Below, piece after piece: positions 9,687-47,274 of a stretch of 64,000 bases of DNA (position 1 is the stretch's first letter; each line of letters starts with the position of its first letter). The DNA comes from Actinomycetes bacterium. Its GTDB lineage: Bacteria > Actinomycetota > Actinomycetes > Streptosporangiales > Streptosporangiaceae. Below the pieces are notes generated by a model. The model was given only the letters and a program-made list of their open reading frames with translations. It had not been told where the DNA came from and searched no databases. The stretch lies in NCBI GenBank assembly GCA_021793235.1, contig JAJYTD010000001.1, positions 248,001 through 312,000 on the forward strand, given 5' to 3'. Position numbers and translations under genes: made by a program.

Positions 9687-10017
9687 GTTCTGTGCTTGCA
9701 GATCAACGTTTTTCCAGGTAAAGGAACGTGGGTGAAGCCAGAACCCGCAGTTTTCCTGCTGCTGGAGTGCGCGCCGGGTCGTCGGGGTGGTTGCCCGTGC
9801 GCGCTGCCGGCCCTAGCCTCACCGCAGTGGCGTATTAACTCCGCACGCTGCGGGTAGCCCTACCCGCAGGGGACGATGCACGTATCAGCGGGCATCGGCC
9901 GCTGTGGTCCCGTCGTCGCGGCAGCGGCCATCGTCGGCGGCCCCTGTGGCCTGGCCGCCGCAGCCGGGAGCGGACGAGGACCGGTCGACGGCCGCGGGTA
10001 CGGTTGGGGGTAGGGCC
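9687..10017 (+). other. Upstream region of rny
   Basis: Gene-free stretch that, with the preceding 86 bases, makes 417 bases between recX and rny. It contains a perfect 10-bp-arm palindrome at 9848-9869 with CGTATTAACT just before it. The rny reading frame is open from 9904, but this part (9904-10017) has no ribosome binding site of its own and does not look like RNase Y. Confidence 0.5.
9848..9869. promoter_or_regulatory. 22-bp palindrome upstream of rny
   Basis: CTGCGGGTAG at 9848-9857 and its exact complement CTACCCGCAG at 9860-9869, separated by two bases. The tight centre fits a dimeric repressor site better than an RNA hairpin. It is 149 bases before the rny start, and an AT-rich CGTATTAACT at 9831-9840 could be part of a promoter. 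Confidence 0.5.
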
Positions 10018-11601
10018 ATGGAGGGGGCGACCAGCCTGCTGATCGCGGGAGTATCGGCGCTGCTGGTCGTGGCCGGGGCCGCGGTCATCCTCACCAAGCT
10101 ATTCTTTGCCGCCCGGGAACGGCGCTCGGCCGCAATCCGCACGGAGTTGGCCACAGCCCGGGATCAGGCCGAACGCATCCGTTTCGAAGCGGATACCGCA
10201 GCCGCCGAGAAGCTCCGCGCCGCCGAGGAGCGAGCGGTAAAACACCAAGCAGAAACCGAGAAGGAGCGGTCGGCCCTCCGGGCCGAACTGGCGGAGCAGC
10301 GTAGCGAACTGGAGCGGCGGGAAGCGCGGCTGGCAGAACGTGAGCAGCGGTTCGACACGGAGATGCGCAGGTTCATGGAGGCCGGTCGGCGTGCTGAGGA
10401 GCGCGCCGCCTCCCTGGATGAACGCGAGCAGCGGCTGGCCCGCCTCGAAGAGGAGCGCAGGGAGGTGCTGGCCTCTTCTGCGGCCCTCACCGCGGAGGAG
10501 GCCAAGGCCGAACTCGTCGCCGCGGTGGAAGGGCAGGCCAAGCGCGAGGCGGCGCTGATCGCCCGCGATATCGAGAAGGACGCCCGCAAGAACGGGGAGG
10601 CACGGGCACGCAAGATCATCACGCTGGCCATCCAGCGGTTGGCCGCCGAACAGACGGCGGAGTCGGTGGTCTCAGTGTTCCATCTGCCCAGCGATGACAT
10701 GAAGGGGCGCATCATCGGCCGCGAAGGGCGCAACATTCGCGCCTTCGAGACGGTCACCGGAGTCAATCTGATCATCGATGACACTCCGGAGGCGGTGCTG
10801 CTCTCGTGTTTTGATCCGGTGCGTCGCGAAATGGGCCGGATCACGCTGGAGAAGCTGGTTCTCGACGGGCGCATCCACCCGCACCGCATCGAAGAGGTCT
10901 ACGAGGCCAGCCGGGCCGAGGTGAACCAGTTGTGCGTGCGTGCCGGCGAGGACGCCCTGGTCGAGACGGGTATCACCGACATGCATCCGGAGCTGGTGAC
11001 GCTGCTGGGGCGGTTGCGGTACCGGACCTCCTACGGGCAGAACGTGCTCAAGCACCTTATCGAGTCGGCGCACCTGGCCGGGATGATGGCCAGTGAACTC
11101 GGTATGGACTGCACACTGCTCAAGCGGTGCGCGCTGCTGCACGACATCGGCAAGGCGCTCACACATGAGGTGGAGGGCAGTCACGCTCTGATCGGAGCCG
11201 AGATCGCCCGTAGGTACGGCGAGTCCGAGGACGTGGTGCACGCGATCGAGGCGCACCACAACGAGGTCGAGGTGCGCACTCTGGAGGCCGTGCTGACCCA
11301 GGCCGCCGACGCGATCAGCGGCAGCCGTCCCGGGGCGCGCCGGGAGTCGCTGGAATCCTATGTCGAACGGTTGGAACGGCTGGAGGAGATCGCCCGCTCC
11401 AACGAAGGCGTGGAGAAGGTCTTCGCGATGCAGGCCGGCCGGGAGGTGCGGATCATGGTGCGCCCGGAAGCGGTCGACGACGTCCAGGCCCAGGTGATCG
11501 CCCGCGACGTCGCCAAACGGGTCGAGGAGGAACTGACCTACCCGGGGCAGATCCGAGTGACCGTGATCAGGGAGTCGAGAGCCACCGAAACAGCGCGCTG
11601 A
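10018..11601 (+). CDS. rny: Ribonuclease Y
   Basis: 527-residue membrane-anchored endoribonuclease that starts mRNA decay. Domains in order: one N-terminal transmembrane helix (residues about 5-28), a long Arg/Glu coiled coil (about 35-200, rich in [15 protein letters not shown]-like heptads), a KH RNA-binding domain with GREG at 234-237, and an HD hydrolase domain with His375-Asp376 in [20 protein letters not shown]. The ATG at 10018 follows GGGGGTAGGG and places the membrane helix at the very N-terminus, as in the family; the upstream in-frame stretch is discarded. It stands alone behind a region with a direct repeat and a palindrome. Confidence 0.93.
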
Positions 11602-15859: not shown

Positions 15860-16675
15860 TCAGGCGCAGTCGTCGAATTCCGGCTGCTCTGTGGAGTACT
15901 CGAAGTCCGCGTCACCGAAGTGCTTGTCCAGGTACTCTTCCGCGGTACCGTCCTCGTACATCTTGGTGATGGCGGCGTTGATCTCTTCGCAGCGTTCGGT
16001 TGAGCCCTTGGGCAGGCCGACACCGTACCGCTCCTCCTGCAGGTCCAGGCCGAGCAGTTCGAATTCGCCCGGCTGCTGGGCGGCGTAGCCGGCCAGGATG
16101 GTGTTGTCCGTGGTCACCGCGTCGATCTGGCCGTCGGTGAGCAACTGCAGGCATTCGGAGTAGTTCTGCGTCTCGCGGAGTTCGGCGCCGATCTCCAACG
16201 TATCGGTGATGGTGTAGGCCGACCGGGAGCCGGACGCGGAGCAGAGCCCCTTGCCTTCCAGGTCCTCGGCCGTTGAGATGTCGTCCGTGCCCGACTGGAC
16301 CAGGATGTCCTGGGTGGCGACGTAGTAGGGGCCGGCGAAGTCGACGACATCCCGGCGTTCGTCGGTGATGGAGTAGGTCGCGACGATCATGTCGACCGTG
16401 TTCTGCTGGAGGAAGGTCTCCCGGTTGGCCGAGGCGGATTCGGTCCACTCGATCTGGTCTTCGGTGTAGCCGAGCTCCTGGGCGATATAGGAGGCGACGT
16501 CGACATCGAACCCGACGGGTTTGCCGCCGCCCTCCTCGAGGCCGAGGCCGGGCTGGTCGTACTTGACGCCGATGGTGATCGTGTTCTCGTCGCCACCTCC
16601 TCCGCCGCACGCGGTGAGAGCGAGTGTCAGAGCGGCTGCTCCGGCCAGAGCCGTACTGATGGAGCGAACTCGCAT
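15860..16675 (-). CDS. gluB: Glutamate-type ABC transporter substrate-binding lipoprotein GluB
   Basis: 271-residue solute-binding protein of family 3. It begins with a lipoprotein signal peptide ending LTLALTAC, with Cys23 as the lipidated residue, followed by a glycine-rich linker. The mature part has the family start ITIGVKYDQPG and GFDVDVASYIAQELG, and the hinge-region block DMIVATYSITDERRDVVDFAGPYY (quoted in part) that contacts the amino acid. Two cysteines late in the protein may form a disulfide. The ATG at 16675 has GGAGAGG eight bases upstream; a TTG two codons earlier is less likely. Substrate (glutamate) is assigned by similarity and operon order. Confidence 0.9.
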   Translation of the reverse strand: MRVRSISTALAGAAALTLALTACGGGGGDENTITIGVKYDQPGLGLEEGGGKPVGFDVDVASYIAQELGYTEDQIEWTESASANRETFLQQNTVDMIVATYSITDERRDVVDFAGPYYVATQDILVQSGTDDISTAEDLEGKGLCSASGSRSAYTITDTLEIGAELRETQNYSECLQLLTDGQIDAVTTDNTILAGYAAQQPGEFELLGLDLQEERYGVGLPKGSTERCEEINAAITKMYEDGTAEEYLDKHFGDADFEYSTEQPEFDDCA

Positions 16676-16701
16676 GGGCAATACCTCTCCATTGTGGTGT
16701 A

Positions 16702-43347: not shown

Positions 43348-43528
43348 ACCGAAGTCCACCGGCCACGGTCGGGCATCGGTGGGGCGGTTGATGCTCGGCT
43401 CCGTGTGTCCCTAAGATCGCGCTACGCGGTTCGCCTTTCCTGCCCTCCTTATATCTTTTATGAATAGGTTGATCCGCAGGCGCCCATCTTTTCTCCAGCA
43501 TGCCCGCTACCGGTGTAGAGGAGCACTC

Positions 43529-44089
43529 ATGGCTCGCCTGGCCCCCGTACCGCCGCTGCCGGAGGCGGCGATTCCGCCCGATCTCATGATCCCCGCCGGG
43601 TACGAGCACTATTTCAACCGCACCCCTGACCGCCGCTACTACACCCGCCGCAGCTACGAATTCCCGGGGGATCCGGTGTGCATGCCGCTGGTGCACGCCT
43701 TCCTCGACACCTGTGCGGCGGCGCGCGACGACGAGTACCGTTATGTCTTCGACCTGCTCGGCACCGAGCTGGCCACCAACGCCATCAAGCACTCCCGCTC
43801 CGGAGAGCCCGGCAACACGTTCACCCTCAAGGTCGAGCGTTCTGTCCATGGTCTGACGCTCACGTGTCGGGACGGCGGGGCCACGGACGGGGCGAGCCGC
43901 GATCCACAGGACCGCCACTTCCTATTCGCCGCGTCGTTTGCCGAACGGCTCACCGCCGACTCCGGGCGCGGCCTTGCCCTGGTGGACAGCCTCGCCACCG
44001 CCTGGGGCGACAACGGCCATCCCAGTCTCCGCCAGGTCTGGTTCTACCTCGCCTACGACCTCACCGACAGTTCCTGGCCCGCGGCCTGA
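43529..44089 (+). CDS. RsbW-like serine-kinase-type ATP-binding protein
   Basis: 186-residue GHKL ATPase of the single-domain anti-sigma/regulatory type common in actinomycetes. The N box is LLGTELATNAIKHS, G1 is CRDGGA and G2 is SGRGLALVDSLATAWG. Such proteins phosphorylate anti-anti-sigma factors or act as regulators; no partner gene is adjacent, so its target is unknown. GAGGAG lies five bases before the ATG. AT-rich sequence (TATATCTTTTATGAAT, about 43450-43465) upstream may be its promoter. It converges with the remnant of a sugar permease gene. Confidence 0.8.
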   Translation: MARLAPVPPLPEAAIPPDLMIPAGYEHYFNRTPDRRYYTRRSYEFPGDPVCMPLVHAFLDTCAAARDDEYRYVFDLLGTELATNAIKHSRSGEPGNTFTLKVERSVHGLTLTCRDGGATDGASRDPQDRHFLFAASFAERLTADSGRGLALVDSLATAWGDNGHPSLRQVWFYLAYDLTDSSWPAA

Positions 44090-44118
44090 CACCCTCGTTC
44101 TTCCCGGCGCAGCCGGAT

Positions 44119-44153
44119 GCGGCCGTGCCGGGGGAGGAACCCGGCACGGCCGC
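44119..44153. terminator. Terminator shared by the RsbW-like gene and the permease remnant
   Basis: Perfect 14-bp inverted repeat (44119-44132 and 44140-44153), loop GGAGGAA. It lies 30 bases after the plus-strand stop and 15 bases after the stop of the minus-strand remnant, and probably was the original terminator of the lost transporter operon. Confidence 0.85.
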
Positions 44154-44167
44154 TAGATCGGCGTTGT

Positions 44168-44305
44168 TCAGCCCTTGACCGATCCGCTGGTCAGACCCTC
44201 CACGATGAAGCGCTGCAGGAACCAGGACACCGACAGCACCGGGATCGCCAGCACCGGGGTCACCAACGGGAGCATGATACGGAACCCGCGAGGACGCGAT
44301 CTCAT
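44168..44305 (-). pseudogene. Remnant of a MalG-type sugar ABC permease (45 codons)
   Basis: A 45-codon frame whose end, WFLQRFIVEGLTSGSVKG, is the characteristic C-terminus of carbohydrate ABC permeases of the MalG family, preceded by LPLVTPVLAIPVLS, which resembles the permease EAA-loop region. The first residues (MRSRPRGFRI) have the look of a signal-peptide start rather than of MalG. It has its own ribosome binding site (AGGGAG five bases before the ATG). Best explanation: an internal deletion joined the 5' end of a mal-type operon to the 3' end of its last gene, removing nearly all of malE, malF and malG. It is downstream of the alpha-glucosidase gene on the same strand. Confidence 0.7.
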
Positions 44306-44395
44306 GAATCTCCCTCTTCGGGGCCCACTGCCGTGGGCACCCCCACGCGGACACGGCTTGTCGAGAATGTGCGGTGGTGAAACGCGAGCAAGTTA

Positions 44396-44420
44396 CTGCA
44401 AATTTTGAAAGAATTTGCAG
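44396..44420. promoter_or_regulatory. Orphan operator palindrome upstream of the permease remnant
   Basis: CTGCAAATT at 44396-44404 and its exact complement AATTTGCAG at 44412-44420, seven bases apart. LacI-family regulators of sugar operons use such TTGCA-containing palindromes. It now controls only the 45-codon remnant. Confidence 0.65.
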
Positions 44421-44489
44421 AAAACTTCCATCTTGATAGGGAAAAGCGCCGGAAACCGACGTGACCCGTGTTCCCGACCCGGTCCGCGG

Positions 44490-46130
44490 TCAATAACCAA
44501 TGCTGAGCCACGCGGTGGTGTCGGCCGGCAGCACCAGCGCGCCGCCGCGCAGCTCGACCTTTCCGCTGGCGAGCAGCAGTTCGCCCGTCAGGGCCAGCAC
44601 GGCCTCGTCCTCCGAGAGGTTGATCGCGCACGCGAAGCCGGGTTCGCGGCGAAACGCCAAGACCCCGGGCGGAGCGTCGATCCAGGTAAGCGCCCCGTCG
44701 CCGAGGGCGGCGAATCCGCGGCGCGCCCGCAGGGCCGCGGTGTACATCGACAGCGTCGAGTCCGGGTCCTCCCGCTGGGCCTCGCGGGTGAGCCCGGCCC
44801 ATTCCGCCGGGACGGGAAGCCACGGAACGGTGCCGTCGGGACCGAACCCGAACGGCGGCTCGGACCCCTCCCAGGGCAGCGGCACCCGGCAGCCGTCACG
44901 CCCCCGCTCGGTCCGGCCCGAGCGCTCCCATGTGGGGTCCTGCAGTGCGTCGTCGGGCAGGTCGGTGACCTCGGGCAGGCCCAACTCCTCGCCCTGGTAG
45001 AGGTAGGCCGACCCGGGCAGCGCGAGGGTGAGCAGGGTGGCCGCCCGTGCCCGCCGCAGCCCGTCCTCTCCGCCGCCGAAGCGTGTCACGTGCCGTGTCA
45101 CATCGTGGTTGGACAGCACCCACGTCGTCGGCGCGCCGACGACGCCGTTGGCGGCGAGCGACCCGTCGATGACCTGACGCAGCACATCGGAGTCCCACTC
45201 GGCGTTCAGGTACTCGAAGTTGAACGCCTGGTGCAGTTCGTCGGGGCGCAGGTAGCGTGCCACGCGTTGCGCGTCCTCCACCCACGCCTCTGCGACCAGG
45301 GCGCGCTCGCCCGGGTAGGAGTCGGCGATCGCGCTCCAGCGCCGGTAGATCTCGTGTACGCCGTCCTGGTCGAAGTAGGGCAGCCGGTTGGTGCCGTTGA
45401 GCAGACCGGCCTTCTGGCCCTCGGGGATGTCGGGCAGCCCCGGATCCTTGACCAGGCCGTGCGCGACATCGATGCGGAACCCGTCCACCCCGCGGTCCAG
45501 CCAGAAGCGCAGCACGTCGTCGAACTCGTCGTGCACCTCCTGCCGGGTCCAGTCCAGGTCGGGCTGTTCCGGGTCGAACAGGTGCAGGTACCACTCCTCG
45601 GGAGTGCCGTCGGGCCGCTTCAGCCGGGTCCAGGCCGGGCCGCCGAAGATCGATTCCCAGTTGTTCGGCGGCTCGTCACCGTCGGGGCCGCGCCCCGGGC
45701 GGAAGATGTAGCGGGAGCGGGCCGGGGCGCCGGGCTCGGCGGCCACGGCTTCGGCGAACCACCGGTGGGCCGAGGAGGTGTGGTTGGGGACGATGTCGAT
45801 GATCACCCGCAGCCCCAGTTCATGGGCGGTGGCGGTCAGGTCGTCGAAGTCGGCCAGAGTGCCGAAGCGCGGATCGACGCCGCGGTAGTCGGCCACGTCG
45901 TAGCCGCCATCGGCGAGCGGGGAGACGTAGAAGGGGGTGAGCCAGACGGCGTCGACTCCGAGTTCGGCGAGTTCGGGGAGCCGCTCGCGGATGCCGGGCA
46001 GATCGCCCTCGCCGTCGCCGTTGGAGTCGGCGAAGCTGCGGACATAGATCTGGTAGATGACGGCGTCGCGCCACCACTCCCGCTGAGCGGTGGTAGGTGA
46101 CGGGCTCCCGGACTCGGGGGCGGTCGGCAT
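44490..46130 (-). CDS. Alpha-glucosidase, glycoside hydrolase family 13
   Basis: 546-residue cytoplasmic GH13 enzyme that hydrolyses short alpha-glucosides such as maltose or isomaltose. Conserved regions are DIVPNHTS (region I), GFRIDVAHG with the nucleophile Asp (II), LVAEAWVED with the acid/base Glu (III) and VLSNHDVTRH (IV). The start MPTAPESGSPSPTTAQREWW has GGAGGG six bases before the ATG. It is transcribed divergently from a LacI regulator with two operator-like sites between, a typical maltose-type module, but the transporter genes that normally accompany it have been deleted. Confidence 0.92.
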   Translation of the reverse strand: MPTAPESGSPSPTTAQREWWRDAVIYQIYVRSFADSNGDGEGDLPGIRERLPELAELGVDAVWLTPFYVSPLADGGYDVADYRGVDPRFGTLADFDDLTATAHELGLRVIIDIVPNHTSSAHRWFAEAVAAEPGAPARSRYIFRPGRGPDGDEPPNNWESIFGGPAWTRLKRPDGTPEEWYLHLFDPEQPDLDWTRQEVHDEFDDVLRFWLDRGVDGFRIDVAHGLVKDPGLPDIPEGQKAGLLNGTNRLPYFDQDGVHEIYRRWSAIADSYPGERALVAEAWVEDAQRVARYLRPDELHQAFNFEYLNAEWDSDVLRQVIDGSLAANGVVGAPTTWVLSNHDVTRHVTRFGGGEDGLRRARAATLLTLALPGSAYLYQGEELGLPEVTDLPDDALQDPTWERSGRTERGRDGCRVPLPWEGSEPPFGFGPDGTVPWLPVPAEWAGLTREAQREDPDSTLSMYTAALRARRGFAALGDGALTWIDAPPGVLAFRREPGFACAINLSEDEAVLALTGELLLASGKVELRGGALVLPADTTAWLSIGY

Positions 46131-46236: not shown

Positions 46237-47274
46237 ATGGGTCCACGATTGGCCGACATCGCCCGGCACGCCGGCGTGAGTGAGGCGACGGTTTCCCGGG
46301 TGCTGAACGACAAACCCGGTGTAGGAGCGGACACGCGCACGGCGGTGCTGACCGCGCTCGACGTTCTGGGATATGAACGCCCCGCACGGTTGCGGCAGCG
46401 CTCTGCAGGATTGGTCGGCATGGTCGTGCCCGAACTGGAGAACCCGGTGTTCCCGATGTTCGCCCAGGCCGCCGAAGGAGCGCTGGCGCAGTACGGGTAC
46501 ACCCCCGTCCTGTGCACGCAGACCCCTGGCGGGATCGCCGAGGACGAGTACGTCGAAATGCTCATGGAGCGCAACGTCTCCGGCATCATCTTCGTCTCCG
46601 GACTGCACGCCGACACCACCGCGTCCCACGAGCGCTACCGCCGACTGGTCTCTCGGAAACTGCCCATCGTGCTGGTCAACGGCTATTCCGAGAGCATCCC
46701 GGCCGCGTTCGTCTCCTGCGACGACCGCGAAGCCGGCCGGCTGGCCGTCAACCACCTCGTGGCGCTCGGCCATACCAGGATCGGCTTCACCAGCGGCCCC
46801 GACCGCTACGTGCCCGTCCGGCGCAAGCTGGAGGGCTACCACGAGGCCATGGCCGCCAACGGGCTGCCGCCTGAGGGCAAGGTGGAGCTGTCGCTGTTCG
46901 GTGTCGAGGGCGGGCACGCGGCCGCCGTGCGGCTGCTCGACCGCGGCGTCACCGCCATCGTCTGCGGTTCGGACCTCATGGCGCTCGGAGCGATCCGCGC
47001 CGCGCGCCAGCGGGGCCTGTCCGTCCCCCACGACTTCTCTGCCATCGGCTACGACGACTCCCAGCTCATCGCCTTCACCGACCCGCCGCTGACCACGGTC
47101 CGCCAGCCGGTCCAGGCCATGGCCCTCGCGGCGGTGCGCACCCTGTACGACGAGATCGCCGGGCACCCGGTGTCCCGTGCGGAATACCTGTTCGACCCGG
47201 AGCTCGTGGTGCGGGGCTCCACCGGAACGGCGCCCATCCCCGCCGTTGGTACCGGCCCGCTGCCCGCAATGTGA
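46237..47274 (+). CDS. LacI-family transcriptional regulator
   Basis: 345-residue regulator with an N-terminal LacI helix-turn-helix (RLADIARHAGVSEATVSRVL, residues 4-23), hinge (RLRQRSAGLVGMVVP) and a periplasmic-binding-like effector domain ending in PPLTTVRQPVQAMALAAV. Expected to repress the divergent alpha-glucosidase and itself until an alpha-glucoside-derived sugar appears; the paired TTGCGCAA sites in between support this. Message probably leaderless. A perfect terminator follows. With the transport operon gone, the inducer must enter by another route. Confidence 0.92.
   Translation: MGPRLADIARHAGVSEATVSRVLNDKPGVGADTRTAVLTALDVLGYERPARLRQRSAGLVGMVVPELENPVFPMFAQAAEGALAQYGYTPVLCTQTPGGIAEDEYVEMLMERNVSGIIFVSGLHADTTASHERYRRLVSRKLPIVLVNGYSESIPAAFVSCDDREAGRLAVNHLVALGHTRIGFTSGPDRYVPVRRKLEGYHEAMAANGLPPEGKVELSLFGVEGGHAAAVRLLDRGVTAIVCGSDLMALGAIRAARQRGLSVPHDFSAIGYDDSQLIAFTDPPLTTVRQPVQAMALAAVRTLYDEIAGHPVSRAEYLFDPELVVRGSTGTAPIPAVGTGPLPAM

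Follow-up and report, generated by a model that had tools for sequence, protein, structure and literature searches.

The minus-strand feature at positions 44119 to 44420 of the window (the whole 64-kb stretch of DNA that was analysed) is, with a probability of about nine in ten, a natural remnant of a maltose/maltodextrin ABC importer operon, malEFG, which was lost by at least two deletions. As a trace of gene loss it is of a known kind and unusually readable. The features are listed below, where L052 is the locus of a relative with an intact operon (numbers beginning with L denote loci of relatives).

44119..44153, minus strand: perfect hairpin with 14-bp arms (44119-44132/44140-44153), a probable terminator without a T tract
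44168..44305, minus strand: remnant frame composed of the malE start, mid malG and the malG end, stop codon included (from the open reading frame and alignment)
44171..44242, minus strand: C-terminal malG piece, PVLSVSWFLQRFIVEGLTSGSVKG, within an 86-bp match to L052 10223-10308
44243..44284, minus strand: mid-malG piece, FRIMLPLVTPVLAI, within a 58-bp match to L052 10024-10081 (also 86 % to L060, E-value 6e-13)
44285..44305, minus strand: malE start codon and first codons, 3 to 7 codons (codons 4-7 of putative malE origin)
44306..44395, minus strand: malE leader with the ribosome binding site AGGGAG (BLASTn against L052)
44396..44420, minus strand: malE-type operator, a 25-bp palindrome CTGCAAATT-CTTTCAA-AATTTGCAG with 9-bp arms and a 7-nt spacer, starting 115 nt before the ATG
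44490..46130, minus strand: intact GH13 alpha-glucosidase-type gene, aglA (PF00128, E-value 1e-98; 73-82 % identical in 18 close loci)
46237..47274, plus strand: LacI-family regulator, MalR type by position, divergent from aglA (domain and locus comparison)

Composition and origin of the remnant frame

When the scar was compared with L052 using BLASTn, three pieces were observed. Query positions 57-201 match the malE leader (window 44444-44300 against L052 6444-6587; 74 % over 146 columns, E-value 1e-16), positions 217-274 the middle of malG (83 %, E-value 3e-10) and positions 248-333 the end of malG (89.5 %, E-value 2e-26). A significant DNA match to the leader was listed for L052 and L063 only. 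Judged by these alignments, the leader and both malG pieces are derived from the malEFG operon.

The 45-codon frame extends from an ATG at 44305-44303, with AGGGAG directly upstream, to a TGA at 44170-44168 and encodes the peptide MRSRPRGFRIMLPLVTPVLAIPVLSVSWFLQRFIVEGLTSGSVKG, as the sequence-only reading had described. The same reading took the beginning of the peptide for a signal peptide, which was not borne out. Codon-level alignment places residues 8-21 (FRIMLPLVTPVLAI) in mid malG and residues 22-45 in the last 24 residues of malG. As residues 8-45 thus align with malG, only the first three to seven residues can be of malE origin, and a MalE signal peptide was ruled out as the source of the hydrophobic stretch.

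In all 14 relatives with an intact operon, the residues that follow the mid-malG piece in malG are V(G/A), and 56 codons (168 bp) separate the two malG pieces. Thus at least two deletions are required, and the single in-frame deletion from the start of malE to the end of malG that had been proposed is refuted. In L035 the C-terminal malG match extends slightly upstream by similarity, and a separate mid-malG match is also present.

We propose that a malE-malF-malG maltose/maltodextrin ABC importer operon once lay downstream of aglA. One deletion (A) would have removed about 3.4 kb from the first malE codons to mid malG (3413-3473 bp in the 13 relatives measured, assuming that seven malE codons were retained), and another (B) 168 bp (56 codons) within malG. 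With both junctions in frame, the malE operator, leader, ribosome site and start would have been placed ahead of 45 codons closed by the original malG stop codon, with the hairpin after them. The order and mechanism of the deletions are as we infer them. A further small deletion may have occurred within the first malE codons, where an 11-nt stretch is an exact malE match in one of the 14 relatives (L063; P 0.0035 against random 60-mers of the locus), with P of at least 0.07 in the other 13. Slipped pairing between TGCTGGCG repeats was also considered for the 168-bp deletion. Of the two copies, one at each end of deletion B, the first was found in seven of the 14 relatives and the second in two; as only L035 has both, this candidate is weak.

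When the peptide was compared with the NCBIfam MalG model NF008231, it matched positions 270-296 of 296 with an E-value of 0.0024. The score of 17.5 bits is far below the curated cut-off of 261, as is to be expected of a match of 27 residues. The intact MalG of L052 likewise stays below that cut-off (214 bits); MalE and MalG of L052 match the respective NCBIfam models, each below the curated cut-off, and a comparison of this MalG with structure 2r6g gave a match to the E. coli MalG (E-value 6.5e-50). The remnant tail is 80 % identical to L052 malG over 30 residues (tblastn, E-value 2e-11), and the MalG-like ending noted before is therefore confirmed. Membership in the MalG family was taken as a full-length permease scoring above the NF008231 cut-off and carrying a BPD_transp_1 domain, which the remnant peptide is not, and a Pfam search of its 45 residues gave no match; the predicted product is a MalG fragment and not a member protein of that family. 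Plasmid records contained 55 weak matches to the peptide. Among the eight matches listed (best E-value 4e-3), five lie over carbohydrate ABC permease genes and three over unannotated DNA.

The operon in relatives and its repeated loss

Eighteen close loci (L032-L037 and L052-L063) were compared, and L038 was excluded as the second aglA copy of one genome (70 % identity). All loci were found through aglA, and its presence is thus no evidence. The nearest named relatives by aglA are Nocardiopsis and similar actinobacteria. In 14 of the 18 loci malE-malF-malG lies downstream of aglA, the MalF of the 13 intact relatives other than L052 being 63-74 % identical to L052 MalF over nearly its full length. 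In 11 of the 14, malG is followed by a convergent lepA. The malG stop and the LepA match are 77-163 bp apart in ten of the 11 and 741 bp apart in L063, where the LepA match covers only residues 1-378. L035 has lepA on the other side of the locus, and L052 and L058 gave no LepA match among those listed for the locus. A frame ending in the searched MalG-type tail was observed in 45 of 99 loci (L032-L130).

In the other four close loci (L032, L036, L037 and L054) aglA runs directly toward lepA. No MalE, MalF or MalG match was obtained there at the cut-offs used, and by this search the operon is fully absent from them. The lacI adjoining aglA is kept in three of the four, and the L037 locus gave no LacI match. 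In the window both the alpha-glucosidase and the LacI regulator are intact, as had been claimed.

A tree was drawn for AglA, LacI and LepA with L037 left out. L054 (operon lost) grouped with L033 (operon kept) at a bootstrap of 98, and L036 (lost) with L063 (kept) at 87 (66 without LepA). The window joined L034 and L052, which still have the operon, at only 63 (73 without LepA). On this tree several independent losses of malEFG are likely, the L054-L033 grouping being the sole well-supported one.

The genome of the window is a 4.8-Mb draft of 119 contigs rated 99.97 % complete. L052 MalG, MalE and the last 379 of the 538 residues of MalF were searched in eight genomes. Orthologues were found in G022, G029 and G008 (MalG 75-78 %, MalE 68 %, MalF 70-72 %), and the best MalG in G020, G017, G007 and the genome of L054 reached 35-38 %. 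The search of the window's genome yielded no orthologous malE, malF or malG. Its best paralogues (MalG 36 %, MalE 24 %, MalF 32 %) sit together on contig C52 and were rejected as the missing operon, as they belong to a different sugar-type importer. The MalG search recovered the scar itself as the last 33 MalG residues. A malE-like match of 32 residues at 16577-16675 was also rejected, being the signal peptide of another ABC importer's binding protein (15860-16681, minus strand), whose signal-peptide region is 66 % identical over 32 residues to L052 MalE.

The draft state of the genome, with its 119 contigs, might be taken to favour an assembly artefact, that is, a misjoined contig in a genome that carries an intact malEFG. 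We give this explanation hardly any weight, since the two clean in-frame junctions lie about 292 kb into a 525-kb contig and the search of this nearly complete genome found no orthologous genes.

Some DNA match to the scar was present in 148 of 341 family genomes. Among the matches listed, a leader joined to malG (a match starting before query position 197) was seen in the window's genome only. This genome is the sole one of its genus among the 341 compared, and the deletions are therefore not datable.

Taken together, the core of the sequence-only reading, a deletion scar of a maltose-type ABC operon, stands. Relatives have malEFG at the same place, the upstream part matches the malE control region, the downstream part matches the malG end, and no orthologue was found elsewhere in the genome. 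As for the findings set beforehand as grounds for rejecting it, the relatives do carry transporter genes here, the tail does resemble a sugar permease, and the joined peptide occurs in no other family genome among the matches listed.

Three further observations were made at these loci. In the Nocardiopsis loci L059, L060 and L062, a second MalE-like binding protein gene (48-52 % to L052 MalE) lies after aglA and before malE. In L037 (G007), from which malEFG is absent, positions 9818-10382 of the aglA-lepA gap contain a 147-bp unit resembling the lepA end, in 3.9 repeats at 98 %. In the window, lepA is separated from the scar by a HATPase-domain (anti-sigma-like) gene (43460-44089, plus strand). 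This gene has apparently arrived next to the scar from another place, because ten relatives have only the short malG-LepA distance given above and the sequences closest to it are found at other sites, one in G022 at 2.33 Mb (73 %) and one on contig C49 of its own genome (63 %).

Operator, leader and hairpin

The perfect palindrome reported at 44396-44420 is the sole match to the pattern CTGCAA-N11..13-TTGCAG in the 64 kb, and 100 shuffles gave none. In 13 of the 14 relatives, the 420 nt preceding the MalE match contain an operator-like 25-mer (at least 16 of 25 positions), a level reached by 2 of 1400 single-base shuffles. The exception is L033 (best match 14 of 25), and L035 and L062 are weaker cases among the 13, as their best site is off the aligned position. 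The site starts 114 nt ahead of malE in L052 and 115 nt ahead of the ATG in the window.

The operator itself might be what was retained, serving as an additional site for a MalR-type regulator close to aglA, with the frame as a by-product. The palindrome is perfect, its type is conserved upstream of malE, and LacI and aglA are intact. However, the site follows aglA, so that about 1.7 kb separate it from the lacI-aglA intergenic region, and no malE-type operator is present between aglA and lepA in the four loss loci (best 9-13 of 25). We consider this explanation very unlikely.

In PMC5526262, the MalR core site of S. lividans is given as CTTGCAG, in an inverted and direct repeat upstream of malE; the palindrome of the window carries TTTGCAG, which is one base off that core. 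The same paper describes an Actinoplanes MalR-type regulator that does not control the malEFG it adjoins, and MalR-type control is for this reason putative here. The remnant is perhaps still under such control, and we infer that its transcription may continue under the adjacent LacI regulator. A promoter scan of 44090-44520 gave no sigma-70-type promoter.

A perfect 14-bp terminator had been claimed after the frame. The perfect 14-bp inverted repeat is there, and the region 44100-44170 folds strongly (-43.2 kcal/mol, z -4.49; 1 of 200 shuffles as good). The hairpin at 44119-44153 has no T run and is absent from the list of the terminator scan; its role as a terminator is probable.

Decay, possible function and comparison with known systems

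In the 38 malG-derived codons two amino-acid replacements are unique to the window, one of Phe and one of Ala by Ser, each at a site invariant in the 14 relatives; three synonymous codons are unique as well. In the 14 intact relatives the number of unique amino-acid changes ranges from 0 to 3; L035 has three, two of them at otherwise invariant sites. As L035 with its intact malG has as many, the two changes are no proof of relaxed constraint. The frame has a GC3 of 0.92, and at the DNA level its malG part shares 85-90 % identity with six of the 14 relatives. Decay thus appears slight, and the high GC3 together with the open frame suggests that the remnant is probably young. The best reading is that it is neutral, without a selected function.

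Under a contrasting explanation, the remnant was retained because it encodes a small membrane protein under maltose control, consisting of one hydrophobic segment and the MalG tail. The frame is open through two junctions, has operator, ribosome site, start and stop, and shows little decay at its GC3. On the other hand, the joined scar is found in 1 of the 341 family genomes among the matches listed, the four loss loci yielded nothing similar to MalE, MalF or MalG at the thresholds applied, and a young deletion would look alike without selection. Such a protein is very unlikely. Two independent junctions would both be in frame with a probability of about 1 in 9, which could hint at selection and is too weak to argue for it. 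It would be a long shot that a maltodextrin-induced 45-residue membrane peptide acts on a shared sugar-importer ATPase, or that the operator re-times aglA. The two MalG parts of the peptide near the ATPase are presumably the end of the EAA loop and the C-terminal tail, after the E. coli contacts.

If the feature is read as a neutral remnant of malEFG, the loci represent stages in the loss of a sugar importer: 14 are intact, the window is half-way, and four are finished, with aglA straight toward lepA. It is plausible that the pathway is being eroded or rewired. Through deletions an operon can become a minigene that retains its control elements, a kind of raw material that might give rise to small proteins. 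Perfect control elements around a short frame are also no guarantee that it is a functional gene. Among the titles listed by a limited literature search, none dealt with a malEFG remnant.

Compared with the actinobacterial malEFG operons next to aglA and a MalR-type LacI (Nocardiopsis-type L052-L063; Streptomyces), the window has the same neighbourhood, malE operator type, leader and malG end. It differs in being without malF and nearly all of malE and malG, so that the control region and 45 codons are left. When bacterial genes are lost by internal deletion, the promoter-side and terminator-side ends remain. Unlike the usual remnants of this kind, the window has two in-frame junctions, which leave an open, well-formed minigene.
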